A stretch of 64,000 bases of DNA from Branchiostoma lanceolatum. Lineage: Eukaryota; Chordata; Leptocardii; Amphioxiformes; Branchiostomatidae. Where the stretch lies: NCBI RefSeq assembly GCF_035083965.1, contig NC_089726.1:12901501-12965500 (forward strand). Reading direction: 5' to 3'. A program made the position numbers and the translations under genes. Positions 33,888-61,773 of this stretch are shown here, piece by piece; position 1 is the stretch's first letter, and each line of letters begins with the position of its first letter. The notes under the pieces were generated by a model, which saw nothing but the letters and a program-made list of their open reading frames with translations, did no database searches and had not been told where the DNA came from.

Positions 33888-33893
33888 TTTATT
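33888..33893 (-). terminator. Polyadenylation signal of paralog A
   Basis: AATAAA on the minus strand lies 50 bases after the stop codon of paralog A, preceding a purine/pyrimidine-mixed downstream region. Confidence 0.8.
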
Positions 33894-33942
33894 AAGTCAT
33901 AAGCTGTTGGCTCAGCTATAGCTACTCTCTGCGACAGGTGGT

Positions 33943-36331
33943 TTAGGCGGAGATACCGGCACCGAAGTTCTCCTGGAAGTGGTTGGTGACAGAGTTGATG
34001 ATGGTGTTGGCGTCATCGACGTAGGGCTGCACAACGGCGCCCAGCTGGTCTGTAGGGGCGGTAGGGAAAGGATCACGTATTTACTTTTTGCAACAATGCA
34101 AAACAATGCCCTATTGAAATGTATCGGTTCCTCAACATCCTTCAGTTTTTGGGTTAGGTTTCTCCAACAAGTTTCATTTGTTACTTTCATGACCAGCTGA
34201 TTCAGAGCATCCAACAATATAATCGACAGAATCTTTTACTTTGTCTACGTGATGTAGAGGGTGCACAGGAAGTGACGTCACTTACCGGTGACCTGGTTGA
34301 AGGTGGTGCCGACATTGTTGGCGAAGTTGGTGGCGTGGCCGACAACGGCGCTACCGAGGGCGGTGGCTCCGTCAACGAGCTGAAAGAAAACATAATTGTC
34401 GTTATTGAGTGATTGATTGATTGATTGATGGATTGATCCTAAAGCTAGGCCCTATAGTTGAAGTCACCATTAAGTTGAACTTACACACTTCACCAGCTAG
34501 GTTTGTTTTATCATTCATCATGCCCTGAAATACAGCAAGTCAACAACTATAATTATGTTTTGGAATGATACCAATGATCAAACACACATGTATCTATCAA
34601 TCAGTACACAAGTTTGTGATAAATTAGAATTTTTCTGAACCAATTAGATTCCACCTCACGTCACATAACACAGCGTATTTCATGTTTGTTTGTTATCTGG
34701 TTGTGAATTGGCGGTTGATACTTAGTACTTACGTTCGTGAAGGCCTGGTCAGCGGCGTCCAGGACAGGCTGCACCAGGTCACCCAGGGCGCTCACAACCT
34801 GGTCCAGGATGCGGGCGCTCTTCACAACCTTCAGCTGAAAAATAATGAACACATATTTTCAGTATTCGTCATAAACATAAAATATAAAACACGATATGTG
34901 CAGCAAGTGAGAGATTGGTCGGACTTGTGGTCGACGCTTGTGCATATGATTCTATCTAAGTATCCATAAACAATTTCTTTACATCTTATATTGACGTATG
35001 TATAACGTCATCCATTCATAAATCGATACAAAGTTAGATAGACACAAATGCAAGTTAAGTATGTATTACATCGATTGTATATAGCTAGATACTACTCTCC
35101 AAGCAGATCGAGGTTCTTCGGCTCTGGCTTGTTGTTCACGTCTTTTTAGGCGTTTTTGTCGGGCTTTCTACTTTTACAAAATAGAAAGCCTGAAAAAAAA
35201 AACGCCCCAAAAGACGTCAACAACAAGCCGGAGTCGAACCTCTGCTTGGAGAATAGCTAGATAGAAAGTTGACAAGGGGAAGACAAATATAGAGAGGGGC
35301 ACACAGATACAGCATCAGAGCGAAAGATGGTCTGTACCTTCTTAGCGATGACGATGGACATCTTCTTCATGGTGCTCTTGCTGTCCATCCCCAGGTGCAT
35401 CCTGCTCTTCAGGTTCTGGTTCTTGATCTTACGGTAAGCCACTACGAGGAAACAATTCAGCAACGTTATGTTCTATCTTATGTATTTAGGTTGCAACACT
35501 GCAGACAACAATAAGCAGGTAGGGAATTGCTGGTATCGTGGAACAGTTTTTTCTATTGAGCCGTGGTATGGTAGCAGTGTCATCAGTCTTACTGATTCGT
35601 TACTCTGAGAACACATCATTTGCTGGGCAAGTTTACACCATTGCAACGTCCTTCAACTTCCTAGGACTCTACGAAATAGATCACTCCCGTTGTTAAGCCC
35701 CTATCTCACTGGACCCGCGGCACGTTGGCGACCTCGCTGTGATCGCAGGTCCGATTTGACAAAGCGCTCAACGAATTTCATCAATAGAAAACGAATCCTT
35801 TTACGCTCCGTGTGTTTAGTTGTCTTTTTGGTCGTACTTTCTTGCATGATATTCTCGTTATAAAGTCAGTAATACCAATCCGGTTTAGAACACAGCGACG
35901 CCGCCAACGTACCGCGGGTTCTGTGATAAAGAGTTTATTTGTGCCACTACATGTATATCAAACATGATGAACTCACGTTTCCTTGTGGTCATCTCGGTTT
36001 CGGGCTCGGGAGTGAAGAGGGAGGTGAGGGAGCTGGTGAGGCTGGTCTGGACGTTGTTGATGGCGTTGGTGGCGTGCTCCAACATGGACATGATGCCGTC
36101 GTGGAGGATCTGTCCGATCTCGGTCTGCAGTCCGATCTGACGCTTGCCGGAGACCAGGTCGGTCAGCCATGTTCCTGCGTTCTGGATGGCCTCTCCTACC
36201 AGCTGCTGGGCGGCCTGGCCGATGATGGGCACGTAGGTGTCGACAAGGCCTAGAGTAAGATAGATAAGAAATCTTTATCGACACTACAAAAGTACAGCAA
36301 CCTTTGGTCTAAGCTCTTCTACAACTACATG

Positions 36332-36381
<50 letters not shown>

Positions 36382-36892
36382 AATTAGTGAACACAAATGT
36401 ATTAATCTAAGTATATGAATGAATCAACATATTGAGTTTAATGTATCATTTACACTACTGATTCTAAGCTTTGAATATTCTTTGATGTTACTCACGATGT
36501 GCCATACAGTTGCGCATATATTCTCAAAGGTATTTACCTAGAAAGCACATAACTCTGTAAAGAAAAATGTGATGGCTTTTAACGCTACAAGCACACTATG
36601 AGCTTGCAACCACAAAATGGCAGCAGTCTTTCCAGACTTTAACGTCCTTTAGTATCACAGTAAGACGTTTCTACTGCGTCTCGCACGACAACGTCTTTCT
36701 TCTACTAGATAGGAAGACCCAACATCGGTCAAAAGGAAACTGTTGGTGCTTACTCTGTCCGACGGTCTGTGCGTGGTCCAGGATGGAGGAGGCGGCCTCG
36801 GTGATGGCGCCGGAGATCGTGTCCAGGATGCGGGGCTCAGCGGAGCTTGCGCCCGACAGGGCCAGCAGGACGAATACGGCAAGGAACTTCAT
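33943..36892 (-). CDS. Paralog A of a secreted helical protein family (unknown function)
   Basis: Six coding exons (36892-36754, 36249-35977, 35441-35338, 34834-34733, 34379-34286, 34049-33943) join at phases 1,1,0,0,1 to give 272 residues. A signal peptide (MKFLAVFVLLALSGASSA) is followed by a helical acidic region, then exon 2 with DTYVPIIGQAAQQLVG, a basic SGKRQ site and TEIGQILHDG. Exon 3 is strongly cationic (about ten Lys/Arg, one Asp). Exons 4-6 are amphipathic helices ending in VVQPYVDDANTII and an Ala C-terminus with TAA. The mature protein has no cysteine. I recognise no named family. Helix pattern and lack of cysteine recall apolipoproteins; the basic central exon recalls cationic peptide precursors. 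A is the most diverged copy at exon 4, where RGFFDDL is absent. The start is the only ATG giving a signal peptide. Confidence 0.85.
34411..34436. repeat. GATT simple repeat
   Basis: A short imperfect (GATT)n run lies in the intron after exon 4 of paralog A. Confidence 0.8.
35081..35263. mobile_element. Foldback MITE, copy 1, with 11-bp flanking repeats
   Basis: The hairpin runs from CTCCAAGCAGA (35097) to TCTGCTTGGAG (35251). It is flanked by the direct repeat ATAGCTAGATA at 35081-35091 and 35253-35263. The arms contain GGCGTTTTTGTCGGGCTTTC. It has no coding capacity. It sits in intron 3 of paralog A. The long target duplication suggests a Mutator-like mobiliser. Confidence 0.82.
35697..35925. 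mobile_element. MITE-like inverted-repeat element (GCACGTTGGCGACCTCGCTG family)
   Basis: Left end CCCCTATCTCACTGGACCCG then CGGCACGTTGGCGACCTCGC is mirrored imperfectly by AGCGACGCCGCCAACGTACC at the right. CAAAGCGCTCAACGAATTTC lies inside. It is shared with 59646-59880 and, weaker, 31015-31240. It lies in intron 2 of paralog A, and its right end approaches the exon 2 donor. Confidence 0.6.
36334..36377. repeat. CA/TG dinucleotide microsatellite
   Basis: About 21 uninterrupted AC units lie in intron 1 of paralog A. Confidence 0.95.
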
Positions 36893-37290
36893 TGCAGATT
36901 CTTCTGGACAGCATAACAATTAGAACAGCATAAAAAATATCAAACCAGTAAGCACAAAAATGATCAGTTATTCACACAGCCTATCCAGCATCTATATGGA
37001 CGATACTTGAAGGTATGACTACGCAATGTACATGTTAAGATGCTTCAGTTCACTATCGCTTAGAAAAAATACAGCATTTGAAAGACCAAAAACTTTTCGC
37101 GTGTACCGATACGTTAAACATGGAGTTGTAACAGACTACCCTGTACAAGTGGCCACTACAAAATTACATGTGTATTACAGAGTAGCTATATTTATAGGAG
37201 AATCATAATGCTCGACATCTTCGTTCAATGCACCGCTGTCTCGTTAGTTATACGGACAAGATCCAAACTCTCCCATAGGAGTGCACTCAC

Positions 37291-37375
37291 CTGTTCTGGA
37301 TGCAGTAACACCGATGTCTGTCAGTCTTGTTCTTGTGATGAGTGAGGCTGGTTGTCCGAAGAGTCCAGGTATATA
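37291..37375 (-). promoter_or_regulatory. TATA-type promoter and non-coding exon 1 of paralog A
   Basis: On the minus strand a TATATA box (37375-37370) is followed by about 50 bases of likely 5' UTR that end in CCAGAACAG and a GTGAGT donor (37290). The 10-mer ACAACAGGTG (plus strand) sits just upstream at 37391-37400, as in paralog B. The TSS near 37340 is inferred from spacing. Confidence 0.6.
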
Positions 37376-37400
37376 TCCATGGATGTACAAACAACAGGTG

Positions 37401-40186: not shown

Positions 40187-43100
40187 CTAATAGGATGGGA
40201 TGTACCAATTTCCATGTGAGAACCGCTTCGTAAGTATGATATATTCTTGAGTTAAACTCATTATGTTACAGTTTGAACTGTGGGAGCAAAGAGATGATCC
40301 GTAGATTAACAGGTGTTTAATAGCATCGTCCGAGAGTGACTTGATGTCGAAAATGTGTCCTATAATTTTGGAAAGTTGGTCAAGTAAAAGTAAACGCTGG
40401 TTAATATGTAATGGGCAGTGAAGTAGGAAATGAGAGATTGATTCGCATTGACACCCGCAGTAACATGCCGGGCTATCAACTAGCCCACGACTGAAGAGAC
40501 TGCCATTCAAGCCGTGGGTGCCAATGCGAAATCGTGCCAAGAGTGAACAAGCATATCGGGGACCATAACTGAAATGACTAGGTTTGGAAGGTCGTACACA
40601 TTTAAATAGGTACATCCGAAACTTAGAGTAGCTGTAACTTCGTATTCCAACATCCAGTTTGTTCCAATGAGTTAATGAGTATGGAACAAAGGACTTAACA
40701 AAACGGTTTGTTGAGCCTGTCAGCGATCTTAGATTCATTTTGTTACGAAGATCATACAAACATGTTGATGAAATGACTGCAGGGAGTAAATCAGACAGAT
40801 AGCTACGAGTAACACCATGAATAATTTTGTAAAACAGTAATAGTCGATGAATGTGCCTCCTATCCGATAATGTCTCCCAACCGAGTTCTTTACAAGTTAA
40901 GGAGTACGATGAACCTTTGACAGCACCTGCAACAATAAGGGAACAATGATACTGGATTCTTTCTAAAAGTTGAGATTCTTCGTATGTGCAGCTCTGCCAA
41001 ACGACATCACCGTACTCTAAGCAGGGGCGAATAAACGATTTGTATAATATATCCAGAACATTACGAGGTAGTTTAAATTTCAATCCTTTAAATGTGGCCA
41101 AAGTTTTGGAAATTTTGTTCAACATGTAGTTGGTATGAGATTTCCAGGACATATCGGAGCTTAATGTAGCTCCGATATGTTTGTGGGAGGATACAGACTG
41201 GATAACACAATCGTTTAAGAGAAGAGGTGGGTGTACTAAATTTGCTCTTTTGGTTGAAAAGATCATTTCTACTGTTTTGGTTGGATTAAGTTCCATTAAC
41301 CACTGAACAGCCCATGTGTGAATTTTTTCTAAATCAGCATTTAAACAGGAAGCGGAGTGAATCGGATTATCAACAACATGAAGAAGAGAGCTGTCATCAG
41401 CAAAAAGAAATGGCTGGGAGACAAGATTATCAACAATATCATTAATGTAAACAAGAAAGAATAAGGGACCTAATACAGACCCTTGTGGAACTCCAGCACT
41501 AACTAAACACCAGGAAGAACATGTACCGTCTATTACAACCCTTTGAGATCTGTCACTGAGATATGAATAAATCCAGTTTATAAGAGGCCCTTCGATCCCA
41601 TTACAATTTAATTTGAAAATAAGGCCATTATGCCACACCTTATCGAACGCCCGAGAAAAATCAAGAAATACAGCTCGGACTTCTTTTCCGGTATCCAGGG
41701 CTTTTAAAATAGTATGACAAAAATACGCTAATTGACAAACAGTAGAATCGCCTCTTATAAAACCGGATTGAAGCCTATACAAAAGATTATTTTGCATCAG
41801 GTGGTTGTAAAGGTGCTTATAGACTATTTTTTCTAGGACCTTCGACAGGGTTGGAAGTAGGGACACGGGACGATAGTTGCTCTTATCACTAGCATCGCCC
41901 TTTTTGAAAATAGGTACAACATTAGCATATTTCCAGATTTTAGGAAAATGACCATGACACAATGATAGATTAAATACGTAACTAATTTTGTCAGCTATAA
42001 ACGGAACAACTATTTTTAGGAAACGGTTGTCTATGTTGTCATATCCGTGTGACTTATAAGTATCTAGTTCTTTGACATAAAGTTGAACTTCTTCTGGTGT
42101 GGTGGTAACATGAAGTAAACGACTACTTGTCAGGTAGTGAAATTCAGGCAGCGATGCATTAGATTCATCTATGGAGGATTGAGAGACAAAGTATTCATTA
42201 AAAAGTGAAGCCTTCGCCATCGAGTCAACAATAAACGTGCTGCCTTCGTTCAAAGGGGGAATAGAAGTAATTGTTTTAGGTTTGTAAAAGTGTTTTACTA
42301 CATGCCACCACTTCTTGCCAGATAAAGAAGGATCCTTTAAAGAGTCAGACAGACGACAAAAATACTTGGACTTGCTGGATGAGATGGCATTCGAAAGCTT
42401 ATTGCGGATTTTACGGTATGCTGCCCAACTAACCTGAGAGTTTGATAGCTTAGCCAACTTATGAAGTTTATTACGGGATCGCATAAGCTTCCGGATTTCT
42501 TTTGTTATCCAGGGTTTATCTTTTGGTCTAATTAATATGCTTTTGCTGGGGATACAAACATTTTTTGCCTCAATAATAAGTTGACATAGTTTTGACGCAG
42601 CTTCGTCTACAGATGGAAGGAGAAAAATGTCATTCCATTCCGAGCAGGAACAAAATTCAGACAGTTTATCGTAATCAATGCGAGAATAATCCCATACAGT
42701 CCGTGCATAAGGTTTGGGTACATACATCGAAAAGGCCATGGAACAAATGGTGGGACAATGGTGACATCGTGAAAGAGGGGCTTGGACTGACACCGAGTCG
42801 ACATAGTTTGAGGCATCGGTGAGTATAAGATCAATAAGGGAAGCGTGACGCGAAAGGTCACAGGTGGGCTCATTAACAATTTGTGAAAGATTCAGGAGCT
42901 GAGTAATTTGGTATAGCTCGGAGCCAATGGGAGAAGTCGTGTCCAGGTGCCACCATTGATGGTGTTTTGCATTAAAGTCACCGACAACTATAATGGCATC
43001 GGGACGCGACATTCTCGCCATCTGGACAGAATCAGAAAATGAAGACAGAAAATCAGCTGCAGTAGTTGCATCCTGACCGGGCGGCCGGTAGTACACAGAA

Positions 43101-43627
43101 AGTAGAATGTTAAAAGATTTGATTTTCAGCTGAACCCAAATTGCTTCAAACGATTGGGGCTCAAGATCTGTGCGCCGTTTGAAAGCAATAGAAGACGAAA
43201 CGTAAACCAGAACACCTCCGCCGTGCCTGTTTCGATCTCGACGGATCGGGGGCTGAAAATTCGGGACAGTAAGGTTTTCTGAGGTAACAACGTCACTTAG
43301 CCACGTCTCAGAAATTGCAATAATGTCCAGTTTGAATTGTTTAGACAACAAAGAAAGCTCATCCAGCTTCGTCCCTACAGTTATACTATTAACGTTGGCG
43401 TGTAAGATATTCAGGTATTTGGATGTAGTACTTGAACAGGTGGGTCCCGGATTAGGGTGAACATCATTTGATAAAACAATCAACAACAACAGTAACCACG
43501 TGTAAAGTGTAAACAAACTTGTACAGCAGTAGATCATAGCCGTGAAAACTGGGCCTTTGTTCAATACAAATTCATACCGTGTATAACTAATCCTCCCTGT
43601 TACTGCCCGGTTTTTGAGAAGCATCAA
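40187..43627 (-). CDS. LINE ORF2: AP endonuclease and reverse transcriptase
   Basis: The 1146-residue protein nicks target DNA and reverse-transcribes element RNA from the nick. Residues 1-50 are hydrophobic and signal-like, followed at 55-62 by DVHPNPGP (2A-like). The endonuclease spans about 70-300 with HANVNS, SETW (106-109), YYRPPG and GDFNAKH (216-222). The RT spans about 565-830 with NYRPVSLLPTLSKVLE, LDFSRAFD (655-662), GVPQGSVLGP (712-721) and the catalytic FADD (742-745). A Cys/His knuckle-like C-terminal region (CYCGCQCE..SHFLLHCP) follows. At 286-291 the usual S-x-C-D-H pattern reads SRCHHC, so the expected catalytic Asp is His. The reading frame has no breaks. Confidence 0.93.
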   Translation of the reverse strand: MMLLKNRAVTGRISYTRYEFVLNKGPVFTAMIYCCTSLFTLYTWLLLLLIVLSNDVHPNPGPTCSSTTSKYLNILHANVNSITVGTKLDELSLLSKQFKLDIIAISETWLSDVVTSENLTVPNFQPPIRRDRNRHGGGVLVYVSSSIAFKRRTDLEPQSFEAIWVQLKIKSFNILLSVYYRPPGQDATTAADFLSSFSDSVQMARMSRPDAIIVVGDFNAKHHQWWHLDTTSPIGSELYQITQLLNLSQIVNEPTCDLSRHASLIDLILTDASNYVDSVSVQAPLSRCHHCPTICSMAFSMYVPKPYARTVWDYSRIDYDKLSEFCSCSEWNDIFLLPSVDEAASKLCQLIIEAKNVCIPSKSILIRPKDKPWITKEIRKLMRSRNKLHKLAKLSNSQVSWAAYRKIRNKLSNAISSSKSKYFCRLSDSLKDPSLSGKKWWHVVKHFYKPKTITSIPPLNEGSTFIVDSMAKASLFNEYFVSQSSIDESNASLPEFHYLTSSRLLHVTTTPEEVQLYVKELDTYKSHGYDNIDNRFLKIVVPFIADKISYVFNLSLCHGHFPKIWKYANVVPIFKKGDASDKSNYRPVSLLPTLSKVLEKIVYKHLYNHLMQNNLLYRLQSGFIRGDSTVCQLAYFCHTILKALDTGKEVRAVFLDFSRAFDKVWHNGLIFKLNCNGIEGPLINWIYSYLSDRSQRVVIDGTCSSWCLVSAGVPQGSVLGPLFFLVYINDIVDNLVSQPFLFADDSSLLHVVDNPIHSASCLNADLEKIHTWAVQWLMELNPTKTVEMIFSTKRANLVHPPLLLNDCVIQSVSSHKHIGATLSSDMSWKSHTNYMLNKISKTLATFKGLKFKLPRNVLDILYKSFIRPCLEYGDVVWQSCTYEESQLLERIQYHCSLIVAGAVKGSSYSLTCKELGWETLSDRRHIHRLLLFYKIIHGVTRSYLSDLLPAVISSTCLYDLRNKMNLRSLTGSTNRFVKSFVPYSLTHWNKLDVGIRSYSYSKFRMYLFKCVRPSKPSHFSYGPRYACSLLARFRIGTHGLNGSLFSRGLVDSPACYCGCQCESISHFLLHCPLHINQRLLLLDQLSKIIGHIFDIKSLSDDAIKHLLIYGSSLCSHSSNCNIMSLTQEYIILTKRFSHGNWYIPSY
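43442..43465 (-). other. 2A-like ribosome-skipping motif in LINE ORF2
   Basis: Codons 55-62 of ORF2 read DVHPNPGP, preceded by the hydrophobic run LLLLLIVLSN. The 2A consensus is D(V/I)ExNPGP, where the final Gly-Pro bond is skipped during translation. Such motifs are established in APE-type LINEs of several animals. Here His replaces the usual Glu, so activity is uncertain. Skipping would release a hydrophobic leader of about 61 residues from the enzyme. Confidence 0.75.
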
Positions 43628-44026
43628 TTGACAGAAGGCGGAGGTCTCAAGGGCAGCAAACTTGTCACGAAGACACGGGGAAGGGGGAAGGATATGCGCT
43701 TGACTAATCCCCGATTACATACATACATATCAAAATACAAAATGATGCTTTCAAGTGACTTACGACGGAATACAAACAAACGAATACAGACGATGGGATA
43801 CATAATTACGACTTTATAGGTCATAGTAAATAGCAAAACACGGTAAGTTCTCAAGAAAACGTCTCTCTCGGCCTATACAGTCCTCCTTTTTCGTCCGTTC
43901 TAAATACAAATAAACAGAACAAAAATTTCAAGGGACTCAGAGAGAGAAATGAAACAGACGATCAAGATATTCTGGATGAAAAGTCCAGACGCCCAGACGT
44001 GCCGGCTTAAATAATACAAGTTATAT

Positions 44027-44830
44027 TTACTGTCCCTGATGAGAAGACTTGAAGTAATCCTCAGGTGATGTGAAGGTCTTTCCTGCTACGCAGAGGGTCA
44101 TGGTTGCTCCTTGGAGTCGGAACCTGGGTCTGGCGCCCTTGGCCTTGGCATGTTTGAAGGCTTCGCGGAGCTGTTGTTTCTGCCTCTGGATCGCCACAGG
44201 AAGGTGCTCGCTAACTCCGATCCCTGACTTTGACTGGAGACGGTAGGCATGGCGCAAGACGTTGTCCCGCTCAAGCATTGAAACAAATTTTACAATGATA
44301 GGATTACCGTTCATCCGCGGCATGCGGTGCACGTTGACGAAAGAGAAATTCCTGGCATTCACGACCCCCAGTTTATTGACAAGAAAGTCGTAGGCTTCTT
44401 CGACCACATCTTCTTCTGTCTTGGACGGGATCCCCCAGAGAAGAAGGTTCTGTTTCTTAGAGTAGATCTCGTTGTGAAGAAGTTTATCTTCAAGCTCGTT
44501 GATGCGTTTGTGGAGATTCTCCGATTCTTTCTTCGCGTCCACTTTGACCCCTTCGATTTCTTGGTGTGCAAACATCACGCTGTCTTTGACACTTGACACT
44601 TCGAGCCGCAAGGTCTTGATATCTTCGCTCATGTTTGAGACTGATTCTGTAAGTTTCACGAAGCTTGCAGAGGTTTGGCTTGCCAGAGCAGTTAGCTGGC
44701 TTGCAATACTGGACAGTGACACAGCAGCCATCTTGGTACTAGTCACCCCCTCCTCTCTGAAGGATTCGTCAGAAGTCGAGCTGCGGGGGTCCTGTTTTCG
44801 CTTCCTCTTAGCCCTCCCGTGTACAGGCAT
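44027..44830 (-). CDS. LINE ORF1: coiled-coil RNA-binding-type protein
   Basis: The 267-residue protein has a basic N-terminus (HGRAKRKRKQDPRSS), a long heptad-rich coiled coil (about residues 40-115, including INELEDKLLHNEIYSKKQ), then an RRM-like region (NLLLWGIPSKTEED, VHRMPRMNG, NPIIVKFVSMLERD) and a C-terminal domain ending KTFTSPEDYFKSSHQGQ. This is the layout of L1-type ORF1 proteins, trimeric nucleic-acid chaperones that coat element RNA. It precedes ORF2 by 400 bases on the same strand. Confidence 0.85.
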   Translation of the reverse strand: MPVHGRAKRKRKQDPRSSTSDESFREEGVTSTKMAAVSLSSIASQLTALASQTSASFVKLTESVSNMSEDIKTLRLEVSSVKDSVMFAHQEIEGVKVDAKKESENLHKRINELEDKLLHNEIYSKKQNLLLWGIPSKTEEDVVEEAYDFLVNKLGVVNARNFSFVNVHRMPRMNGNPIIVKFVSMLERDNVLRHAYRLQSKSGIGVSEHLPVAIQRQKQQLREAFKHAKAKGARPRFRLQGATMTLCVAGKTFTSPEDYFKSSHQGQ

Positions 44831-44980
44831 CCAAAGCTAAGATGTTGGGCACAAGCTGGGAGTCTCAAATGTAGAAAATCAGGGGATATGAATGAAAGAA
44901 CCGGCACGGACGGGGAGCTGGGTTATAGACGTATCAGCTCTGCCGCCATCTTGAAAACCATTTGAAAATCGTTCGTTATT

Positions 44981-45659: not shown

Positions 45660-48116
45660 TTAAGCAGAGGTATCGGCGCCGAGGGTCTCCTGGAACTGGT
45701 TGGTGACGGAGCCGGCAATGGCCTGGGCGTCATCAACGTAGGGCTGGACAACGGCTCCGAGCTGGCCTGTAGGGGGAGAGGTGTATGTAACATTTTAATC
45801 TCATATCGTGCAGCTGCACTGTGGAATCAGGTTAAATAGGGCTCATCTTATGGTTTCATTTTCGTAGTCTTTCCCCGACCAAAATCTACTAATAACTATA
45901 TCTGAATGTGTTACGTAGAGGCCAACCTGTCCAACCAACTGTGGTACGATTACCGAACTGTTAGTTCACTTTCAGCTGCCTAAGTAACTGTACAAATGCT
46001 CAGGTCTTTGTGAGTGACAGTGTGAGTATTACATTTTACAACATCTATGTTCCTGAATGGTTTAGCGGTGCATGAGTGTAACACTTTAAAATACCTTAAA
46101 TAAAAAATAATACATTCTGTTTTCTGAGTTTCATACGTTTACAGCCGCTAAGTACGTACCGGCGGTCTGCTGGAGAGTGTTGTTGATGTTGTCGACAAAG
46201 TTGGTCGCGTGGTCAACAATCTGTTGTCCTGCAGCGGTGGCGGCGTCAACAAGCTGTCAACAGACGAAGGAGAAACACAAACAAGGTTAGGTGAATGTTT
46301 ATATCATATACGTTGGGAGATAGTAGTACAGTATTGACCCATTGTGTGACCACTGTCCCCTACATTTTCCTTATAAGATCTAATGGTAGTCTTATAGATA
46401 GAAGTACAGTGTGTTATGCTGCAGCTGCAGTATTTTTGCGTTACCTGGTTGAAGGACTGTGTGGCAGCATCCACAACAGGCTGGAAGAGCTGGCCGGCGG
46501 CGGCGCTGAGGTCGTCAAAGAAGCCACGCCTCTTGGCCTGGAGTTACGGAAGGGGGCGAAATGTGAACGCTTTGTGTCAACGTCAACAACGTTCTCGATA
46601 CTTTCCTTACAAATCCTGCACAACGTCCACAAAAGTATCAAGATTAATTTCTTTTCATCTGGAGACAGAAGAGACTCACCATTTTGCTGAGAGACTTGGT
46701 CAGCTGCACCATCATCTGCTGAGCGCGCTTCTTCATCACCCCCTTGCTCTTCTTGTTGATCATCTTCATATCAACTGAAAAAAATATGGAGGATGATTTT
46801 ATGTTGGAACAAAGGTTAAAAACGCACAGTGATGCAGGATAGTCATGGATTATGAAGGACACTCAATGCAATATAACTATTTCTTATGCAAGTGAGAACA
46901 GATTTCATAGAGAGATTTGATGGCGAGACCAGGGACTGACAATAAATCATGACTTTCCATCAGTATTTCATTCACCAAAGAAAAGTATATATTCGAGATT
47001 TGTCACCGTGTTATAAAGAGACGTGATTGAACTCCTCTATTGGTTAATGGTAGAACCCTCGTTTCCGATATCTAAAGTTGACGAGGTTGAAAGAGACGTT
47101 GGTAAGAGCTGTTGTGTTAGATAACAGTATATCTGTTCTGGACTGAACAGAGTTTGCATCTTTTTGTATTCACAAAACATAAAACACACAAAAGGGACAA
47201 GAGAAAGTAGCGACGTACTAAAGTTAACTTTATCCTCGCCGCCACTTGTAAAGCTAAAAAATTAGATCTCCAACAAGGCAATCAAAGATACGGATGATAA
47301 GAATACAAAAACAAGAACGGTGTTCTCACCCAGCATCTTCTCGGAGCTGTCGAACATGTTGGCGACGCTGTCCTGGAGGTTCTGGCTGATCTCCTGCACG
47401 GCGCCGATCACGACCTGCTCCAGCCACTGGATGCCGCTCTGCAGCACGTCCACCAGGCCGCCGACCATGTCGAACCTGCTCCCGGAGCCGGTGATCAGGC
47501 CGGTCAGCGACTCTCCTGCGTTTTGTATGGCTTCTCCCACCAACTGTTGGGCAGCCTGGCCGAGCACGGGCACGTAGGTGTCGATGAGGTCTGGATTGAA
47601 TGAAAAGTGACGTGTAAGGATGATTTTTCGAAATTTCAAACAATGAGCCAGAGTAGGCGTCGCGTAGGAGTGTGTTTGGGCCAAAACCGAGAGGTCCTTT
47701 GTCCGAATCCCCTCACATGCCACTGATTTTGTGCCCTTGCCACTGATGCTTTGCAATTTACACGACTTTCCTCACTCCATCCAGATGTAAAAATGGGTAC
47801 CTTACTAAGGTCTGGAAGCTAAAAAGCGGTGGAAGGAGAGGGGTGGACTCCGCCTTCAAATACCGTGCCCTAGACACGGTGGATTACAACCCACTGCCAC
47901 TACTTGCTCAAAAAGGCAATCGGACTACCTCTACATTTTGTCAGGTGATAACTGAAAACACTAACCACACAACTATGAGTACTAACTTTGGGCGGTTTGC
48001 TGGGCGTGGTCCACGATCGGATTCACGAGCTGGTCCTGCACTCCGTCCCACAGGTCGCTCCAGAAGTCGGCGCGGGCGCACGCCACCAGGGCGAAGAAAA
48101 TAATGAACTTCTTCAT
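45660..48116 (-). CDS. Paralog B of the secreted helical protein family
   Basis: Six exons (48116-47987, 47590-47330, 46774-46680, 46537-46445, 46253-46160, 45766-45660) with phases 1,1,0,0,1 give 259 residues. A signal peptide (MKKFIIFFALVACARA) is followed by DFWSDLWDGVQDQLVNP, then exon 2 with DTYVPVLGQAAQQLVG. This copy lacks the TEIGQILHDG motif and the KRQ site and has instead a longer amphipathic run (LVDVLQSGIQWLEQVV). Exon 3 is cationic (MKMINKKSKGVMKKR), exon 4 begins AKRRGFFDDL, and exons 5-6 match the other copies (LVDAAT..GQQIVDHATNFV; PYVDDAQAIAGS). The mature protein has no cysteine. Function is unknown. Part of exon 2 is nearly identical to paralog C at DNA level. Confidence 0.85.
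47690..47905 (-). repeat. Dispersed SINE-like repeat in intron 1 of paralog B
   Basis: Read on the minus strand it contains GCAGTGGGTTGTAATCCACC, GGTACCCATTTTTACATC, GGAGTGAGGAAAGTCGTGTA and CAGTGG. The same blocks in the same order occur on the plus strand at 57036-57175. A family identity beyond that is not claimed. Confidence 0.65.
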
Positions 48117-48249: not shown

Positions 48250-48340
48250 CTTTGAATAAATGTCTTGAGTCGGTACGCGGTGCTCACGACAGTACAGTCT
48301 GCAGGTATGTGACACACACCCGCCCATCTCCCGTATTTAT
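48250..48340 (-). promoter_or_regulatory. TATA-like promoter and non-coding exon 1 of paralog B
   Basis: ATAAATA on the minus strand (48340-48334) precedes a likely 5' UTR exon ending TTATTCAAA with a GTAAGC donor at 48249. ACAACAGGTG (plus strand) is at 48357-48366, matching paralog A. The TSS near 48305 is inferred. Confidence 0.6.
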
Positions 48341-48366
48341 GTCTGTCCTGTGAGACACAACAGGTG

Positions 48367-49068
48367 ACAATCAGGAAACGCATCTTCCTCAGGGGGAGGT
48401 AAATAATGTTTGTTTTTACACTGAGGTAAATTGGAGAGTTTATTTGCTAGATTTCGTCAAGATCGGCGCTAGATTTCGTCCCTCATGTTATCATTGGAGA
48501 CATCAAAGTGCGTCATAGTTTTACTTCCCTTGATTAATTTGCAACGATGACGTAACATTCCTGTACATATTGTGTCACACACTAACATAACCCTGCTACT
48601 TGTATAGTATAAAGCTGATGGACTTATAAATGGTTTGTCCTTTGTTGCACTACCACAGCAACGGTCATACTGCAACGTTTTGCTGCATCGTTTGTTGCAG
48701 CCTGGTGTCACCATCACTGGGCAGAAATGCACGTGATAGATCGGATAGGGCACCCTGCGTCAGTGACCTTAGACCACGCCTATATGACATCACCGACAAT
48801 TTTCAGCAATGATGATAAGGGCGTTTCCGTCTCTATGGACCAACTCGTCGACTTTAGGACTGAACTTTGTCACTGCCACTGTGAATTAAGTAAAGGGAAG
48901 ACTTTAACCCTGATAACTAACTGTGAATTGTATTCGGAGTTATCTACGTTCATTTATGCTTGATCCATCTGTTGAGGCGTCATTGAGACAACAGGAAATT
49001 ATCCTACCGGCTATTGGTTCCGCCGGATCACTGATGGCCTCGCGCCCTCGCCTCTGTGTGCCTGTAGG
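48367..49068. other. Intergenic, upstream of paralog B
   Basis: On the minus strand AAAACAAACATTATTTACC, a forkhead-type motif candidate, lies close to the promoter of paralog B. No gene is supported. Confidence 0.4.
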
Positions 49069-49356
49069 ATGTGCGCTGAGATTAACGTGCAGTTATCGAG
49101 CAGGAATGTTCCGGCGGAACAAACAAGCATTCCTCATTTTTTACTCCACTGCCCTAACTACAGTTATCAACGCTCATGCCTCCTTGACAGACTTGTAAAC
49201 TTGAAAATAGCTTTGTTAGATATTGATACTTTATCTGATAATGCTTTCGTACACCTTTTGCTTAATGGATCTTCTTTGTTACCATCAAATATCAATGTGC
49301 AAACTCGGTTTATAACTCAACTGTATATATTGGATACTAAGCGTTTTCATAATTAA
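49069..49356 (+). pseudogene. Truncated LINE ORF2 C-terminal fragment
   Basis: The plus-strand frame reads IPHFLLHCPNYSYQRSCLLD, then LSDNAFVHLLLNGSSL and LYILDTKRF. This lines up with the last residues of the intact LINE ORF2 (SHFLLHCP..QR..LLDQL, LSDDAIKHLLIYGSSL, IILTKRF). It is a related but diverged, 5'-truncated copy in opposite orientation to the intact element. Its 3' UTR probably continues toward 49560. Confidence 0.75.
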
Positions 49357-51194: not shown

Positions 51195-53835
51195 TTAAGC
51201 GGTGGTGTCATCGCCGAAGGTCTGCTGGAACTGGTTCTGGATGGAGGAGACGATAGTCTGGGCGTCATCGACGTACGGCGTGGCGACGTCCAGGATGTCC
51301 TCTGTTGTACGATAAAACAAGACCGAACAGATTACAGATTATCCTTTCTGTCCTTTATTGAACTGTTTTTCTGTCCCTTCCCCCTCCTCAACACACAAAT
51401 ACTGCTTGGCGAAAAGACATAAATTTCTAGTTTCTTGTAGAATATATTCTTGAGTCAAAAATTTCACTGGTCATCGAATTCCAAAAACAAAGTAGGAACA
51501 TGTTGTATGATGTTGGCCATTGTAGTTTGAATTGAAGGTATCCAATGTAAATTCAGTGTACTGTGGTCAAACGCGTTTCTAGTCCTCTTTGCTCAAGCTC
51601 CATTTCAGAAAGAGTACCTTTGATAAAACGTTTCTCTGTTAGGTTTATGAAACTTCTGTTCGTGCTTACGGTAGGTCTGCTGCAGCTGGGCGCTGACGTT
51701 GTTGACCAGGTTGCTGCCGTGGTCAAGGATCTGCTGTCCAGCCTGGGTGGCGGTGTCAACGAGCTGCAGGACAAATGTCAATCACGTGACTCCAACTGCC
51801 ACCATACGCATAATTTACTACAATCTTGCTACGATTTACATAAAGATGTTGTTACCTGATATACGTTCCTTAGTCTTTTGTACCAAGAATATGATATCTG
51901 TGGTAGGTCCACTGTTAGATGACGATAGAACTTTCTAAAACGTAGCTATGAGGTGAATATGTGAATGTGCATATAAATGTGGAATGTATGTATAACCACA
52001 ACTTACGCCGTTGAAGATGGCGGAAGCCTGGTCGATGGCGGGCTGGAAGATGGTGGACACACCGGAGGCCAGGGAGTCGAAGAAACCGCGGGTCTGTTCA
52101 CAAGGAGAAAGATTCTTCACCAGGGGAAAAAATCTCACTAAAATGGAATGAGCGGGAAAAACGAGGAGGTTTCTAACGCCCCGCTGCTGAAGTAACGTTG
52201 CACCATAGTACTGACAAGGATTAAACTGGTAGGGCACAACAAAACAATATAACAGAAAACATGTCTTTTTGTACAAGTACCAAGTCATTACGCTTCAAAA
52301 TGCCACAAAGGGTAGTTAACACTGAGCTGAAACCTTTAAGGTAATTTCTTTTTGAACAGTCTCAATTGGTGTATGCTCGGAAATCTGAGATGACAGAGAA
52401 GTGTGGTCTACCTTCTTGGAGATAGCATAGTTCAGGGTCTTCATCATCTTCTGGCCGGCCTTCTTGATGTTCATCTTACCCTTGATGGACATGCGGATAA
52501 GGGAGCCTGAAAAAAAGGAGACATCTTACACACAGGTATGTTTCTCAATAACTATTCAACTCATTAAGAACTTTTGAAAATGACTCAACACAAAGTACTT
52601 AAAATGATTTAAATGAAAGTTATTTGACGATAATAAACACTGTCTGTAAATATTCTATAAAATCTCTACATTAATTAAAAGGACTTTGTTTTTTCCGCGG
52701 TGTTAGTAGCTTCTGACTGTAATGTCGTCACTACTATAAAGTTTTAAAAGGGTTAATTCGGGTGGCGCGCATCTCCGTTTCAATAGCCGTTGGGCCACAC
52801 AACTCTGTGCAATCACTACAGCAGGGGACTGGGCTAGGCTACTGGTAGTGGTGTTTATTCAGCTACCATACTCTTTCACTGGCGCTATTAGTGCTAAGTA
52901 GAGAACGCAGTATGAACCATTTTCGGCTGGGGATCAAACTCACGACCTGCCGTATGCAAGGCGAGCATTCTACCGACTAGGTCATTATGTCACTACTGTG
53001 TGGGATAGAGATGCTGTACCTCTGGTGGCGGGGGCGGGGTCAGAGCCGAAGAGGTTCTGCACGGTCTGGGTGACGGTGTTCTGCACGTTCTGGATGGCAG
53101 TGGTGGCGCCCTCCAGGACCCCCATGATGCCGTCGTGGATGATCTGTCCGATCTCGGTCTGCAGGGTGGCGGCCTGACGCTTGGACCCGCCGCTGATGAG
53201 GCCGGTCAGCGACTCTCCTGCGCTTTGTATGGCTTCTCCCACCAACTGTTGGGCAGCCTGGCCGAGCACGGGCACGTAGGTGTCGACAAGGTCTGGAAGT
53301 AGAAGAGGGATCAGCGTGTATTTTGGTATGTAAGTATCCGCGTTGGCGTTGCTGCCATAGGAGAGTAAATCCGTTTTTCTAGAACGGTGCAAAAATTCAA
53401 CATTGCTTTTGCATTTTTCTTGCATCTATTGATGCTGTACAGTATACGTAATAGCTGTGATGTATGTAAGACAGATTCGGCTTGTGCCAAACAAAAAAGA
53501 ATCATAAGAATTATATTATATTATTGTAACTGAATCCGAAATGAGACGGAAACGGCACAAAATTCCTTCAAATGGAGCATGCATGAAAGTAATTTGGTTT
53601 AGTGATACCAATTGGTATGTACAGCGTATGTAAGAACTCTAATTCAGTTGGGATTTCTTTCCCACCATCAAAGCAGTTCCTAGGATAGGAGTCTGTACTT
53701 ACTCTGTGCGGTCTGCTGGGCGGTGTCGATGACACCCTGGAACGCGGCGGTGGCTGCAGCGGCCAGATCGTCCAGGAGACTGGCCTGGGAGCCGCCGCAG
53801 AAAGCGAGGAGAGCGAAGATGACGAAGGCCTTCAT
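51195..53835 (-). CDS. Paralog C of the secreted helical protein family
   Basis: Six exons (53835-53703, 53292-53020, 52506-52412, 52093-52007, 51763-51670, 51301-51195) with phases 1,1,0,0,1 give 262 residues. A signal peptide (MKAFVIFALLAFCGGSQA) precedes a helical Ala-rich region. Exon 2 has DTYVPVLGQAAQQLVG, GGSKRQ and TEIGQIIHDG and is exactly as long (273 bases) as in paralog A. Exon 3 carries nine Lys/Arg and no acidic residue (SIKGKMNIKKAGQKMMK) and is followed by KKTRGFFDSL. Exons 5-6 give LVDTATQAGQQILDHGSNLV and PYVDDAQTIVSS. There is no cysteine after the signal peptide. Exons 5-6 are closest to those of paralog D. Confidence 0.86.
52757..52986 (-). repeat. tRNA-derived SINE in an intron of paralog C
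   Basis: The minus-strand head has a Pol III A-box-like TAGTCGGTAGAATG and a B-box-like GAGTTTGATCCC at tRNA spacing. A body follows, ending in GTGTGGCCCAACGGC and GAAACGGAGATGCGCGCC, a tail type I associate with SINEs of marine invertebrates and amphioxus. It is not a functional tRNA: no closed acceptor stem is seen. Confidence 0.72.
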
Positions 53836-54129
53836 TTTGCTTTGCTTTTAGCGTTGCTGCAAGAGATGAAAGAAAATTAGATTCACCCTGCTGTTTGTAA
53901 AATTTTCAGCTTCATGGTTGACCGATGAAGAAAATTTTTTCACTAAGTTTCAATCTCTATCTCACGTACTCATTTGGGGAGTCTATATTCAACGCTTCGC
54001 AGAGTATAGGAAAGTTCAATTGCACATACTACAGTATGAGATGTGAATGAGCGAGGTCCAGCATGGGACGATCGTCGTCTTAATAAAATCAGAAAAACAC
54101 ACGACAGTATAGTATCAGAAAGAACTCAC

Positions 54130-54203
54130 CTTGAGTTGCTGGTAGCGCAAGATCTGAGCTTGAATCAAGTGAGGCAGAGTATGGACAGGTGAGCTGATTT
54201 ATA
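54130..54203 (-). promoter_or_regulatory. TATA promoter and non-coding exon 1 of paralog C
   Basis: TATAAA on the minus strand (54203-54198) is followed by a likely 5' UTR ending GCAACTCAAG with a GTGAGT donor at 54129. The TSS near 54170 is inferred from spacing. Confidence 0.65.
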
Positions 54204-56010: not shown

Positions 56011-56150
56011 AAGCATCATGCTTCACCTCAGTTGAGGATAACTGCTTTACGTACCTTTTATGATTATGTAGAAGCCGAACTGAACAAATCTACATTAACA
56101 CAACTAACGCATTAAAAACTGTTTATCAGTCGATTTGCCCGTCAGGACGA

Positions 56151-57035: not shown

Positions 57036-57175
57036 CATAGACTTTATGAGGCCGTAGGGGCAGTGGGTTGTTATCTACCTCCCCAACCGAATTCAGGTAC
57101 CCATTTTTACATCTAGGTGGAGTGACGAAAGTCGTGTAAAGTGCCTTTCCCGTGGGCACAACATCAGTGGGACGT
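57036..57175 (+). repeat. Second copy of the SINE-like repeat at 47690-47905
   Basis: It contains GGGGCAGTGGGTTGTTATCT, GGTACCCATTTTTACATCT, GGAGTGACGAAAGTCGTGTA and CATCAGTGGG in the same order as the copy in paralog B. Confidence 0.65.
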
Positions 57176-57920: not shown

Positions 57921-58027
57921 TATAAATAATACCGTAGGGAAAGTGGACAGCTTTTGGCGGGAACCTGAACAGACACGGACTCAAGCCGATTTCTTCAACT
58001 CGTGCGAAAGCGAACTATTTGGACAAG
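57921..58027 (+). promoter_or_regulatory. TATA promoter and non-coding exon 1 of paralog D
   Basis: TATAAATA (57921-57928) precedes a likely 5' UTR that ends TTTGGACAAG with a GT donor at 58028. About 110 bases upstream CACCTGTGAAAGTAAACAGC combines an E-box and a forkhead-type GTAAACA. Sites are by eye only. Confidence 0.62.
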
Positions 58028-58078
58028 GTACTACTTATGCAATACTCAATTGCAAGAATCTGTTGTTTAGAATAGAGC

Positions 58079-58130
58079 AAAGTACAATTTTGTCACGTAA
58101 TCATGGTTATATGACAAAAATTGTACTTTC
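58079..58130. repeat. Short hairpin in intron 1 of paralog D
   Basis: AGTACAATTTTGTCA and TGACAAAAATTGTACT form a stem with a loop of about 19 bases. Confidence 0.7.
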
Positions 58131-58365
58131 TGGTTGTGCCATATGTTAAGACACTCTGCAAGCAGATGTGCCTTGAAGATAATGAGACAATTCTGAAAGG
58201 AAAAAAATATCATTGCTCTAATACTCTGCTTTGGCTGAATAGAATCGTTTCCGTTACTTTTCATACTAAACAAGGCTCAAATATAGGCCAGCGCATGATA
58301 ACCTTGTATGTTGTGGCTACTTTAGTAATGATGTACATAAGAACTAATATGTACGCGTCCTATAG

Positions 58366-61300
58366 ATGAAGACAGCGGTGGTACTATGCGCGCTCTTCGC
58401 CTGTGCGAACGCGGGCCTCATCTCGGGTCTCCTGGGAACTATCCACGAGAACTTCATCGACCCTCTCCTCGGCTCTGCGCAGCAGACGGCCCAAGGTACG
58501 TACTGGCTACATGCCGATTTAACCCAACACACTGCAGACATAATTTCTTTATCATTATATATCATGCCCATAGTCTAATTGCAAGGGTACACTCAGATAC
58601 AACAACGTGAAAAGTAACAAATGTCTATGCTATAAATCTATTTGATGTTTCTACGTGCATTACAGGGTGGTTTGACTTCTTCGGAGGCAGTGGACAATGA
58701 CATGTCTAACCTTTTTTTAATGATAATTGGGTTTTGCGATTTTAGTAGAACTGTGGTAAGATATCATAAAGCTACACTTTCTGCTCTTTGGCCTTGCCTC
58801 AAAAATATACTAAACTTCATATCAAAGTTGTTTGTCGCAGAAACTTAATGAGTACATTGCATTGATGATTTGACATTGTCTTTCGCCACATAGATCTCCT
58901 TGAGACGTACACGCCGATTCTCGGACAGACGGCCCAGCAGTTGACCGGCTCGGTAGTGCAGGGAGTAGGGGGTGTGCTGACGGACTGGGGGATCGTGGAC
59001 GAGCAGACCGTGGTGGAGACGGGACAGTCGCTCCAGGAGACCGTGGGACAGACCATCGACGGCATCGGTGATGGGCTCAACACTCTGGTGTCGGGCAGGA
59101 AGAGACAGGTAATGCTATGGGCACATTTCCAAACCAATGTCCGGCCGGGAAGTTTGCGGGAACGAAATGTTTGATACTTAAGACAATAAAACACACAAAA
59201 CGTTAGAAAAAAATTAATAATGAGCATAACTTATATTTCTTGACATACACTTATATTTTTCGTTCACGCAAACAACCCTACCGGGCCCCGGTTTAGCAGT
59301 GTGATCATACCATATGGTAGTGCACACACATAAGTGACTTTGTGAGTGCATGGAACAAGCGTAACTGGAGCTGCTGAAGAATAGTAGTTGGGTTTGATTT
59401 TTAACATTTTCACCCTTTTCGGCTATATAAGAGATGTATCATCATTTATTCACAGGAATGGGACTTTTAAGCAGATCCAACAAAGCCCAGGCCTGCAATG
59501 GCATTTTGCAGTCCTGAAACTGTGGATTTGACTATGGGTTACGGACGGCAGCTTCATATGAAGAAACAAATATTGAATTGACCGTTGAAATGATAGCGAG
59601 GTAGCTTACATATTTTCACAACGTAATACAGTTGCACACATGTTAAAGCGGGTATCTCAGAGGACTGCGGCACGTTGGCGACCTCGCTGCGACCTAAAGC
59701 AGAGTTGTGTTACCCTGATTTTATTGACTTTATAATGGCAATATCATGCAAAATGACAAGTATGACTAAAGAGACGACAAAACACATAAAAAGATTCGTT
59801 TTGTATGAATGAAATTCGTTGAGCGCTTTGTCAAATCGCTCGGTTACAGCGAGGTCGCCATCGTGAGATACCTGCTTAACAAACAAACAAACAAACGAGT
59901 ATGTGTGTTTCCACCGTAGATTGAGTTCCAGACTGAGATCGGCCAGATCCTCCATGACGGAGTGATGGACCTGTTGGAGCACACCACCCAGACCATTCAG
60001 AACGTACAGCAGTCCATCACTGGCGCCGTCAACGCCGTGTTCGGAGAGCAGCCCGCCACCAAGGGAAGTAAGTGACAAACATTTTCCCCTTACATTTCTT
60101 TACACAAAGTCATTACCAGAAAAATACTCAAGTCTGACATACACCAGGCACTTCAATGCCTTACGATAACGATTATATGACGAAGACTTACGTGCATCGA
60201 GCTAAACGAGAACTTTCTACATAGCCTACACAGCACTTTCTGTATATGGCTAATACCCATATTGTTGTATTGCAGTCCGTGTGTCTATGAAGGGCATCCA
60301 GATTGTCGGAAAGTAGGGGCTGAAGCTCAAGGCGAAGAAGCTCCTGAAGCAGCTCAGCAACGCCGTCAGCAAGGAGGTTCGAACACTTGTCTTCAAAGAC
60401 AATTACAATCTTAAATCTGATCACTAAAGAACGTTCCTGGAAATGTTCATATTCTTTCTGTGATAAAATTTTTTAGCGTGACAGAGAATTAGATTACCAA
60501 TACATGTTAAGATGATTTAGAACCTATACTTTTCTTGTACACTTTTAAAAGTATGTTCATGAAGAGATAACTGTGGTGGCAGGCCTATCCTTATAGCAAC
60601 GACTTGTTCCTTTTCCCACCAGCGCCGCGCCCGTGGGTTCTTCGACGATCTTGCCTCCACCACGGCTGCAGTGTTCCAGCCCGCCATTGATGCCGCCTCT
60701 CAGGCCTTCAACCAGGTAAGGTCACAGCTAGCAGACAAGGATACACACAGTTGCTTCATGTCATTTTATTTTACACTAGTTATCAACAGGCATACACACA
60801 CACAAGGACATAACACTTTTTACTTGATGATACTAGTCACTTTCGGATGGTGACGTAAAGCTGGTGGCCCTGTGTATGAGCTAGGGAGCTTCAGGCGTAA
60901 GCTTTGCACGTAAAAGAACGTTAACCCAACACACAAATCAAGAAGAGTAGAGTAGTGATCCGATGTGCTTGGCTAAACACAGGAGCCGTAGCGAAGCCGC
61001 ATTACGCTACATGTACTAGCTGACGAAAACGCGCCATGATTCCTCCTCATGCGGAGGTTCGACCGCTTTACCTTTAGTAGCCACTTACATCTGGCATTGG
61101 ATAAGATGATAACGGCCTGATGCCGTTCCAGCTTGTTGACGCCGCCACCACCGTGGGTCAGCAGGTTCTGGATCACGGCAGCACCCTGGTCAACAACGTG
61201 CAGGCTCAGCTGCAGCAGACCTACCGTGAGTATCGCACAGATATCAATATATCATACTTCCTTTCGATTGTAGATCTACTGATGGCGATGCAGCCATGCG

Positions 61301-61652
61301 CTTACTAGTACCGCTGGACCATACGGATGTAGTGTCGCCAAGGCGTACACATATGTCCATCAGGTACAGGACACTGACCGGTGAAGAAAGGTTGGATGCA
61401 GTGCAGTTCTTGTTTACAACAGAGGCCAGTTGTTCAGCAACATTGCAGCATGGCGAGGCATTTTCACTCCGTCTGTCGCTGCAGTACCGATAAAAACCGT
61501 TATCATAGGTGTCTCTTAATGTGTTTCTTTTAAACCATGATTACACCACAGAGGACATCCTGAACGTCGCTCAGCCGTACGTGGATGACGCCCAGACTAT
61601 CGTGGCCTCCATCCAGAACCAGTTCCAGCAAGCCACCGGCACGACTGCTTAA
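58366..61652 (+). CDS. Paralog D of the secreted helical protein family, with in-frame TAG
   Basis: Seven exons (58366-58495, 58894-59108, 59920-60067, 60276-60376, 60623-60715, 61132-61225, 61552-61652; phases 1,0,1,0,0,1) span 294 codons. A signal peptide (MKTAVVLCALFACANA) is followed by ETYTPILGQTAQQLTG, SGRKRQ and TEIGQILHDG, a cationic exon 4, then RARGFFDDL, LVDAATTVGQQVLDHG and PYVDDAQTIVAS, ending TAA. Against A-C it has an extra intron exactly at KRQ and about 30 additional codons before it. Codon 178, inside the cationic exon (60314-60316), is TAG, although splice sites and frame on both sides are intact. As it stands the product would be 177 residues unless the stop is read through or is a sequencing or allelic difference. 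It is transcribed opposite to the other three. Confidence 0.8.
59646..59880. mobile_element. MITE-like inverted-repeat element, second clear copy
   Basis: GCGGGTATCTCAGAG then GGCACGTTGGCGACCTCGCT at the left is mirrored by CAGCGAGGTCGCCA and TGAGATACCTGC at the right. GAAATTCGTTGAGCGCTTTG inside matches the copy at 35697-35925. It lies in intron 2 of paralog D. Confidence 0.65.
60838..61040 (+). repeat. SINE-like repeat, copy 2
   Basis: GATGGTGACGTAAAGCTGGT, CAGGCGTAAGCTTTGCACGT and GTGATCCGATGTGCTTGGC parallel the copy at 55780-56010. It lies in an intron of paralog D. Confidence 0.6.
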
Positions 61653-61767
61653 GTGTACATCACTCACGTGACGCGCCATGACGCGTCATCCGTCTACAGT
61701 AACCTGGAAACTGTGACGACATTGGACTCACAATGACGTCACGTTTATTAGACTTATCACACTGACT

Positions 61768-61773
61768 AATAAA
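61768..61773 (+). terminator. Polyadenylation signal of paralog D
   Basis: AATAAA lies 115 bases after the terminal stop of paralog D. Its presence argues the 3' end of the gene is still transcribed or only recently lost. Confidence 0.75.

Follow-up and report, generated by a model that had tools for sequence, protein, structure and literature searches.

The stretch analysed here is a window of 64,000 nucleotides from the amphioxus Branchiostoma lanceolatum (NCBI RefSeq assembly GCF_035083965.1, contig NC_089726.1, positions 12,901,501 to 12,965,500 of the forward strand); positions below count from its first letter. It carries a cluster of four related genes, three on the minus strand and one on the plus strand, which an earlier note on this DNA had described as an unrecognised family of secreted helical proteins. 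The exon models were built by hand from the raw sequence and checked by script, with splice sites chosen to preserve the reading frame, and are to be read as consistent predicted models (Table 1). GT..AG borders are found at all 21 introns of the coding sequences. Genes 1–3 translate without interruption through their introns, while the model of gene 4 consists of 293 codons and a stop, with one internal TAG. Each of the four ranges that the earlier note assigned to these genes is recovered as a start-to-stop span.

The organization of the four models is largely shared. The coding introns have phases 1,1,0,0,1 in genes 1–3 and 1,0,1,0,0,1 in gene 4; the common phases reported previously are thus identical in the first three genes, and gene 4 differs by an extra intron, placed directly after the residues RKRQ and absent from genes 1–3. 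A 94-base exon is present in every gene and the last coding exon measures 107, 107, 107 and 101 bases (genes 1–4), as had been noted, and the landmark motifs TYxPxxGQ, TEIGQ, GFFDDL and QPYVDDA are present as described. All protein models begin with a signal-peptide-like stretch and none contains a cysteine beyond residue 18, in agreement with the cysteine-free mature products proposed before. The products would presumably be secreted.

That the genes form one family is borne out by this exon layout and by tblastn across the genes, in which the lowest E-value is 2.5e-28 (gene 1 against gene 3) and no match within the window at E up to 1 falls outside the four gene spans; judged by these alignments, paralogy is beyond chance. 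Mean column identity of the four aligned proteins is 59 per cent. Kinship differs from exon to exon: the closest pair in the last two exons is genes 3 and 4 (protein identity 81 and 84 per cent), that in exon 3 is genes 1 and 3 (64 per cent; the presumed non-coding exon is counted as exon 1), and for genes 1 and 2 the last exon stands at 74 per cent. Early in exon 3, genes 2 and 3 are unusually alike, agreeing at 18/20 fourfold-degenerate positions, compared with 19/34 elsewhere (p 0.008), and genes 1 and 2 at 13/16, compared with 18/41 elsewhere (p 0.011), with p 0.06 for genes 1 and 3; pairs with gene 4 have no excess likeness in exon 3 (p 0.82, 0.67 and 0.24). Six gene pairs were compared and these p values are uncorrected. 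Such a pattern is consistent with patchy gene conversion between the three genes on the minus strand. Pairwise ratios of nonsynonymous to synonymous divergence were calculated by exon; synonymous divergence is high and the ratios were not used as proof of selection.

The proteins had been called rich in amphipathic helix, and the amphipathic signal stands at z 7.0, 7.8, 9.8 and 8.9 against residue shuffles. In whole-protein hydrophobicity spectra, calculated with 44-residue windows and 200 shuffles each, the peaks lie at 98.0, 97.5, 96.5 and 98.0 degrees per residue (genes 1–4) with a power of 5.48–7.92, and none of the 200 shuffles is as high; the summed peak of the unnormalised spectrum lies at 97.5 degrees with windows of 22, 33 and 44 residues. 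Control proteins computed identically peak at 98.0 degrees (apolipophorin III, power 4.66), 99.5 degrees (human ApoA-I, 3.39) and 103.0 degrees (tropomyosin, 4.79). The 11/3 helices with which exchangeable apolipoproteins lie on lipid surfaces have a period near 98 degrees, and coiled coils one of about 103 degrees. A coiled coil was rejected for the four proteins, whose power at 103 degrees is 1.87–2.82, compared with the values above at the peak. In the C-terminal arms (C-arms) the peak is at 98.5 degrees in all four genes, with a power of 19.6–24.1 against 8.2–11.5 for the highest of 500 shuffles. Two of the N-terminal arms (N-arms) are also strongly periodic, at 95.5 degrees in gene 3 (power 22.8) and 93.0 degrees in gene 2 (18.3).

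Lysine and arginine together make up 5.3–7.1 per cent of the four proteins, glutamine and asparagine 13.0–17.8 per cent, and aspartate and glutamate 8.2–10.4 per cent; the corresponding values for apolipophorin III are 5.6, 20.4 and 11.1 per cent. Internal repeats were sought as ungapped 26-residue self-matches and compared with 200 pattern-preserving permutations per gene. The best scores, 43, 42, 51 and 42 for genes 1–4, exceed the 95 per cent control levels (41, 39, 42 and 40) in every gene, and exceed every control in gene 3 only, the highest controls being 53, 57, 50 and 44. The best match of genes 2 and 3 joins the beginning of the N-arm to the initial part of the C-arm, and that of genes 1 and 4 lies within the C-arm.

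Basic residues are crowded into a single exon, exon 4. Neither this crowding nor the extra intron and TAG of gene 4 features in the earlier note. Outside exon 4, and with the first 18 residues excluded, lysine and arginine account for 8/220, 5/210, 4/213 and 7/242 residues (genes 1–4), and the enrichment in exon 4 has Fisher p values of 1.0e-5, 4.0e-6, 1.4e-6 and 1.1e-5, for an exon singled out after inspection of the sequences. The arms on either side, 91–149 amino acids long, carry a net charge of −7 to −13, and the basic segment with its junction +10 to +12. N-arms hold 2–5 basic residues in 115–149 amino acids; the C-arms, of 91–93 amino acids, hold none in any gene, and neither do the last two exons in any of the four. 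Pairwise identity in exon 4 is 18–35 per cent, the lowest on average (other exons, 24–84 per cent), in a range that overlaps those of exon 2 (26–42 per cent) and exon 5 (24–62 per cent); its charge is kept despite the low identity. Motifs resembling convertase sites lie beside it, and the precursors may be cleaved there. The pattern XBBXBX, a glycosaminoglycan-type motif, occurs in all four basic segments; it was discarded, having been chosen after inspection and having a shuffle probability of 0.22–0.31 in each.

From its signal-peptide-like start each model thus passes to an acidic N-arm, then to a short, strongly basic segment encoded by its own exon and finally to an acidic C-arm without lysine or arginine; the amphipathic period near 98 degrees is long-range and most pronounced in the C-arms. 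We consider that the genes may encode a tandem family of secreted, exchangeable-apolipoprotein-like proteins, with a probability of roughly 0.45. The acidic helical arms would open out and cover a lipid or membrane surface, such as a haemolymph lipoprotein, a secreted lipid or a microbial envelope, and the basic segment would dock the particle to an acidic partner (a glycosaminoglycan, an LDLR-type receptor or lipopolysaccharide), possibly after cleavage at the neighbouring basic motifs. The segment would then be a separable docking or antimicrobial module. Apolipophorin III is known to open onto and coat lipid surfaces, and it serves as the working likeness because of its hydrophobic period and composition: the insect protein (PF07464; that of Locusta was used) is likewise poor in lysine and arginine, rich in glutamine and asparagine and without cysteine. 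Vertebrate apolipoproteins A-I, A-IV and E (PF01442) have a similar amphipathic period of about 98–100 degrees, and vertebrate exchangeable apolipoproteins would also resemble the cluster in being secreted, with clustered genes and an untranslated first exon. The earlier note had left the choice between lipid transport, immunity and reproduction open; period and composition favour a protein of lipid or membrane surfaces, and an immune role is still conceivable in view of the basic exon.

The level of expression may also be read from codon usage. GC content at third codon positions is 0.80–0.86 in the four genes, compared with 0.57–0.63 in three other host stop-to-stop frames of the window, which are partly non-coding, and with 0.38 in a retrotransposon frame. 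Strong codon bias accompanies high expression in many animals, and these values are a hint that the genes are highly expressed; the products are probably made in quantity.

Several observations weigh against an apolipoprotein-like role. The N-arms are less regular than the C-arms: that of gene 1 peaks at 94.5 degrees with a power of 9.0, marginal against a highest shuffle of 8.9, that of gene 4 at 98.0 degrees with a power of 7.7, between the 95 per cent level (6.6) and the highest shuffle (9.7), and three of the four N-arm peaks lie at 93.0–95.5 degrees. Human ApoA-I is rich in basic residues (15.2 per cent), in contrast with the arms described here. In the class A helices of apolipoproteins A1/A4/E, lysine and arginine flank the apolar face, whereas the C-arms have no such residues and the N-arms only a few; moreover, the repeats of vertebrate apolipoproteins are mostly in the last exon, and in the cluster genes they are spread over several exons. 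Apolipophorin III is shorter (162 amino acids used) and is not known to have a basic central exon or a basic middle segment. It has no significant sequence match to the family: PF07464 is matched by gene 2 only, at E 0.75 and 10.4 bits against a cut-off of 36.3, and the family profile scores 5.9 bits, a value reached by 28 of 300 permuted copies. Pfam, PDB, permuted controls and profile scores do not establish homology to an apolipoprotein family, and the high GC content at third positions has other possible causes.

Reasoning by analogy, it is possible, if unlikely, that the genes encode host-defence precursors. In cathelicidin- or amphibian-type precursors a cationic peptide is kept harmless until cleavage; here, the acidic arms would mask the exon 4 peptide until a convertase freed it against microbial membranes. 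Acidic conserved parts, a divergent cationic segment and basic cleavage-like motifs are common to both. In the cluster the enrichment of exon 4 is seen in all four genes (Fisher p 1.4e-6 to 1.1e-5, with the limit given above), this exon is on average the least conserved while its charge is kept, and basic motifs are found at the exon 4/5 junction in all four genes (KSAR, KRR, KKTR and RRAR) and as Lys-Arg before Gln in three. However, the cationic segment is internal here and C-terminal in the known precursors, and it is not clearly amphipathic, the best 18-mer giving p 0.73, 0.07, 0.059 and 0.077 against shuffles (genes 1–4). The conserved part of the proteins is the arms and not the basic segment, and the arm pattern is more regular than a mask requires. 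In addition, the motif in exon 3 is missing from gene 2, and the full Arg-X-X-Arg at the junction is found only in gene 4.

Rather unlikely, in our view, is that the genes are true cephalochordate representatives of the apolipoprotein A/C/E family of vertebrates and have already been named, for example as the published amphioxus ApoA-I. Pfam PF01442 is matched at E 3.2e-5 by gene 3 (24.2 bits, the best), 2e-4 by gene 2 and 0.096 by gene 4; gene 1 is without a match at E up to 1, and no match reaches 25 bits, compared with a curated cut-off of 90. Ten permuted controls, five each from genes 2 and 3, kept the first 18 residues and the apolar/polar and Gly/Pro positions, with residues permuted within classes. 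Seven of the ten match PF01442 with E no higher than 0.1, the best value being 1.6e-4 for the controls from gene 3 and 0.0069 for those from gene 2, and an apolipoprotein identity taken from Pfam at face value was therefore dropped. Genes 3 and 2 each outscore their own five controls, gene 3 by a small margin, which is weak evidence for a true relation. Other Pfam matches, to SH3BP5 (3.7e-4, gene 4) and Prominin (1.5e-3, gene 2), illustrate that helices of this kind draw hits. The family profile scores 5.7 bits against human ApoA-I, with 7 of 300 permuted copies as high, and 0.8 bits against tropomyosin (86 of 300); in three of the four members it is the same stretch of the C-arm that aligns to ApoA-I 51–105, with E-values that come from a three-protein database and are not comparable. 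The arms are poor in basic residues, as discussed above, and a profile search of PDB sequences at E up to 10 recovered no apolipoprotein, its single match being a bacterial chain (E 1.1).

No Pfam match above the curated cut-off was found for any of the four proteins, and NCBIfam gave no useful match (best E 0.012). Viral contigs and prokaryote genomes yielded 58 and 13 pattern candidates for relatives, none of which was confirmed. Six peptide strings of the family were searched in literature text and no publication containing any was found; among the matches listed, no publication is recognisable from its listing or the opening of its abstract as describing the cluster. The check suggested in the earlier note, a profile search with the spliced proteins, thus gave no strong match to a characterised family in Pfam, NCBIfam or PDB sequences. 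The term "unrecognised" agrees with these results and is not proven by them, as amphioxus ApoA-I may be the same family. The searches covered Pfam, NCBIfam, PDB sequences, viral contigs and prokaryote genomes, and the family may equal the published protein or carry another name in animal databases. That protein, ApoA-I of Branchiostoma belcheri (Wang et al. 2019), is described in PMC7431520, according to which the recombinant protein is reported to bind lipopolysaccharide and lipoteichoic acid and amphioxus ApoA-I to act on Gram-negative bacteria. Since amphioxus ApoA-I is described as binding both, apolipoprotein-like action, a host-defence precursor and a true apolipoprotein would overlap in nature.

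It is very unlikely that the products are precursors of secreted signalling peptides cut at dibasic sites, or structural or mucus proteins of pairing acidic and basic helices. In favour of the first, Gln is preceded in genes 1 and 4 by Gly-Lys-Arg or Gly-Arg-Lys-Arg, an arrangement compatible with amidation and pyroglutamate formation, and in favour of the second, arms and middle have opposite charges. Against these readings, the pieces would be long (the arms), no short conserved peptide lies between sites, the first site is absent in gene 2 and the period is not that of a coiled coil.

Table 1. Predicted features of the four-gene cluster (window positions).
Feature	Position	Strand	Details
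Gene 1 coding sequence	36892-33943	minus	6 coding exons: 36892-36754, 36249-35977, 35441-35338, 34834-34733, 34379-34286, 34049-33943; 272 amino acids
Gene 2 coding sequence	48116-45660	minus	6 coding exons: 48116-47987, 47590-47330, 46774-46680, 46537-46445, 46253-46160, 45766-45660; 259 amino acids
Gene 3 coding sequence	53835-51195	minus	6 coding exons: 53835-53703, 53292-53020, 52506-52412, 52093-52007, 51763-51670, 51301-51195; 262 amino acids
Gene 4	58366-61652	plus	7 coding exons: 58366-58495, 58894-59108, 59920-60067, 60276-60376, 60623-60715, 61132-61225, 61552-61652; in-frame TAG inside
Gene 1 basic exon	35338-35441	minus	10 Lys/Arg of 34 amino acids
Gene 2 basic exon	46680-46774	minus	9 Lys/Arg of 31 amino acids
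Gene 3 basic exon	52412-52506	minus	9 Lys/Arg of 31 amino acids
Gene 4 basic exon	60276-60376	plus	9 Lys/Arg of 33 amino acids; contains TAG
Gene 4 in-frame TAG, basic exon	60314-60316	plus	reads as a premature stop in the sequenced assembly or haplotype
Gene 1 last two exons, end of C-arm	33943-34379	minus	no Lys or Arg; corresponds to the last two exons in each of genes 2-4
Putative convertase site 1, gene 1	36140-36145	minus	Lys-Arg before Gln, exon 3; sequence motif
Putative convertase site 1, gene 3	53177-53182	minus	Lys-Arg before Gln, exon 3; sequence motif
Putative convertase site 1, gene 4	59097-59108	plus	RKRQ, exon 3; sequence motif
Putative convertase-like site 2, gene 1	34811-34822	minus	KSAR, exon 4/5 junction, before GFFDDL; sequence motif
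Putative convertase-like site 2, gene 2	46526-46534	minus	KRR, exon 4/5 junction, before GFFDDL; sequence motif
Putative convertase-like site 2, gene 3	52412-52417 + 52088-52093	minus	KKTR across the exon 4/5 junction, before GFFDDL; sequence motif
Putative convertase-like site 2, gene 4	60623-60634	plus	Arg-Arg-Ala-Arg, start of exon 5, before GFFDDL; sequence motif
Gene 1 TATA box and presumed non-coding exon 1	37290-37376	minus	TATA 37370-37376, exon up to donor GT 37290; pattern search, predicted
Gene 2 TATA-like stretch and donor-like GT	48250-48341	minus	CATAAATA 48334-48341, GT 48250; both by eye, weak
Gene 3 TATA box and presumed non-coding exon 1	54129-54203	minus	TATA 54198-54203, exon up to donor GT 54129; pattern search, predicted
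Gene 4 TATA box and donor-like GT	57921-58028	plus	TATA 57921-57926 by pattern, GT 58028 by eye

A shared promoter type and a non-coding first exon had also been proposed, and this holds in part. In 1600 bases the TATA pattern is matched six times for gene 1, twice for gene 3 and once for gene 4, and one match was picked in each case; a pattern search for the first-exon donor succeeded in genes 1 and 3 only. For gene 2 the two TATA matches are both more than 1.1 kb away; both of its features, like the donor of gene 4, are weaker stretches chosen by eye.

The downstream exons of gene 4 are still close to those of gene 3 (identities above), and its TAG therefore looks like a young stop, or an allele, or an error. 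Splicing around it, by skipping exon 4 or by using an acceptor just past the TAG, was considered by hand and rejected, as exon 5 loses its frame in both cases.

Between genes 1 and 2 lies a non-LTR (non-long-terminal-repeat) retrotransposon (40187-44836, minus strand) with frames of 269 (44027-44836) and 1175 amino acids (40187-43714), the latter with endonuclease and reverse transcriptase domains; the two open frames suggest that the element is young. Upstream of gene 2, a 126-amino-acid frame (48976-49356, plus strand) resembles by eye the C-terminal end of the long retrotransposon frame and has no Pfam match at E up to 0.01. The cluster adjoins an exostosin-type glycosyltransferase of family GT47 (31296-32702, plus strand; Pfam E 6e-43). 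Further away are an ASB-like gene with ankyrin repeats and a SOCS box (26987-27730, plus strand) and a PDZ domain exon (21793-22323, minus strand; Pfam E 5.3e-12). Repeated sequences include a 22-base tandem repeat of 19 copies (23290-23717), a hairpin at 62195-62338 (69-base arms, 93 per cent complementary, 6-base loop) that looks like a small inverted-repeat element, and a tandem array of a 10-base unit in about 87 copies (63117-64000) that extends to the end of the window and is entered by a 165-codon frame (63024-63521). A scan of the window found no Rfam family at gathering score and no tRNA.

A bolder form of the apolipoprotein-like reading, which we regard as improbable on present sequence evidence, is that of an exchangeable apolipoprotein family that evolved independently or very early on the chordate side, built with a repeat per exon, in which 11/3 arms poor in basic residues would coat lipid and a fast-changing basic exon bounded by convertase motifs would be a detachable receptor-docking or microbe-killing module. 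If the apolipoprotein-like reading is true and these are the main exchangeable lipid carriers of an invertebrate, the family would bear on the origin of the vertebrate plasma apolipoproteins and on how lipid transport is linked to antibacterial defence. With the basic segment in an exon of its own, a docking or antibacterial role can be tested directly.

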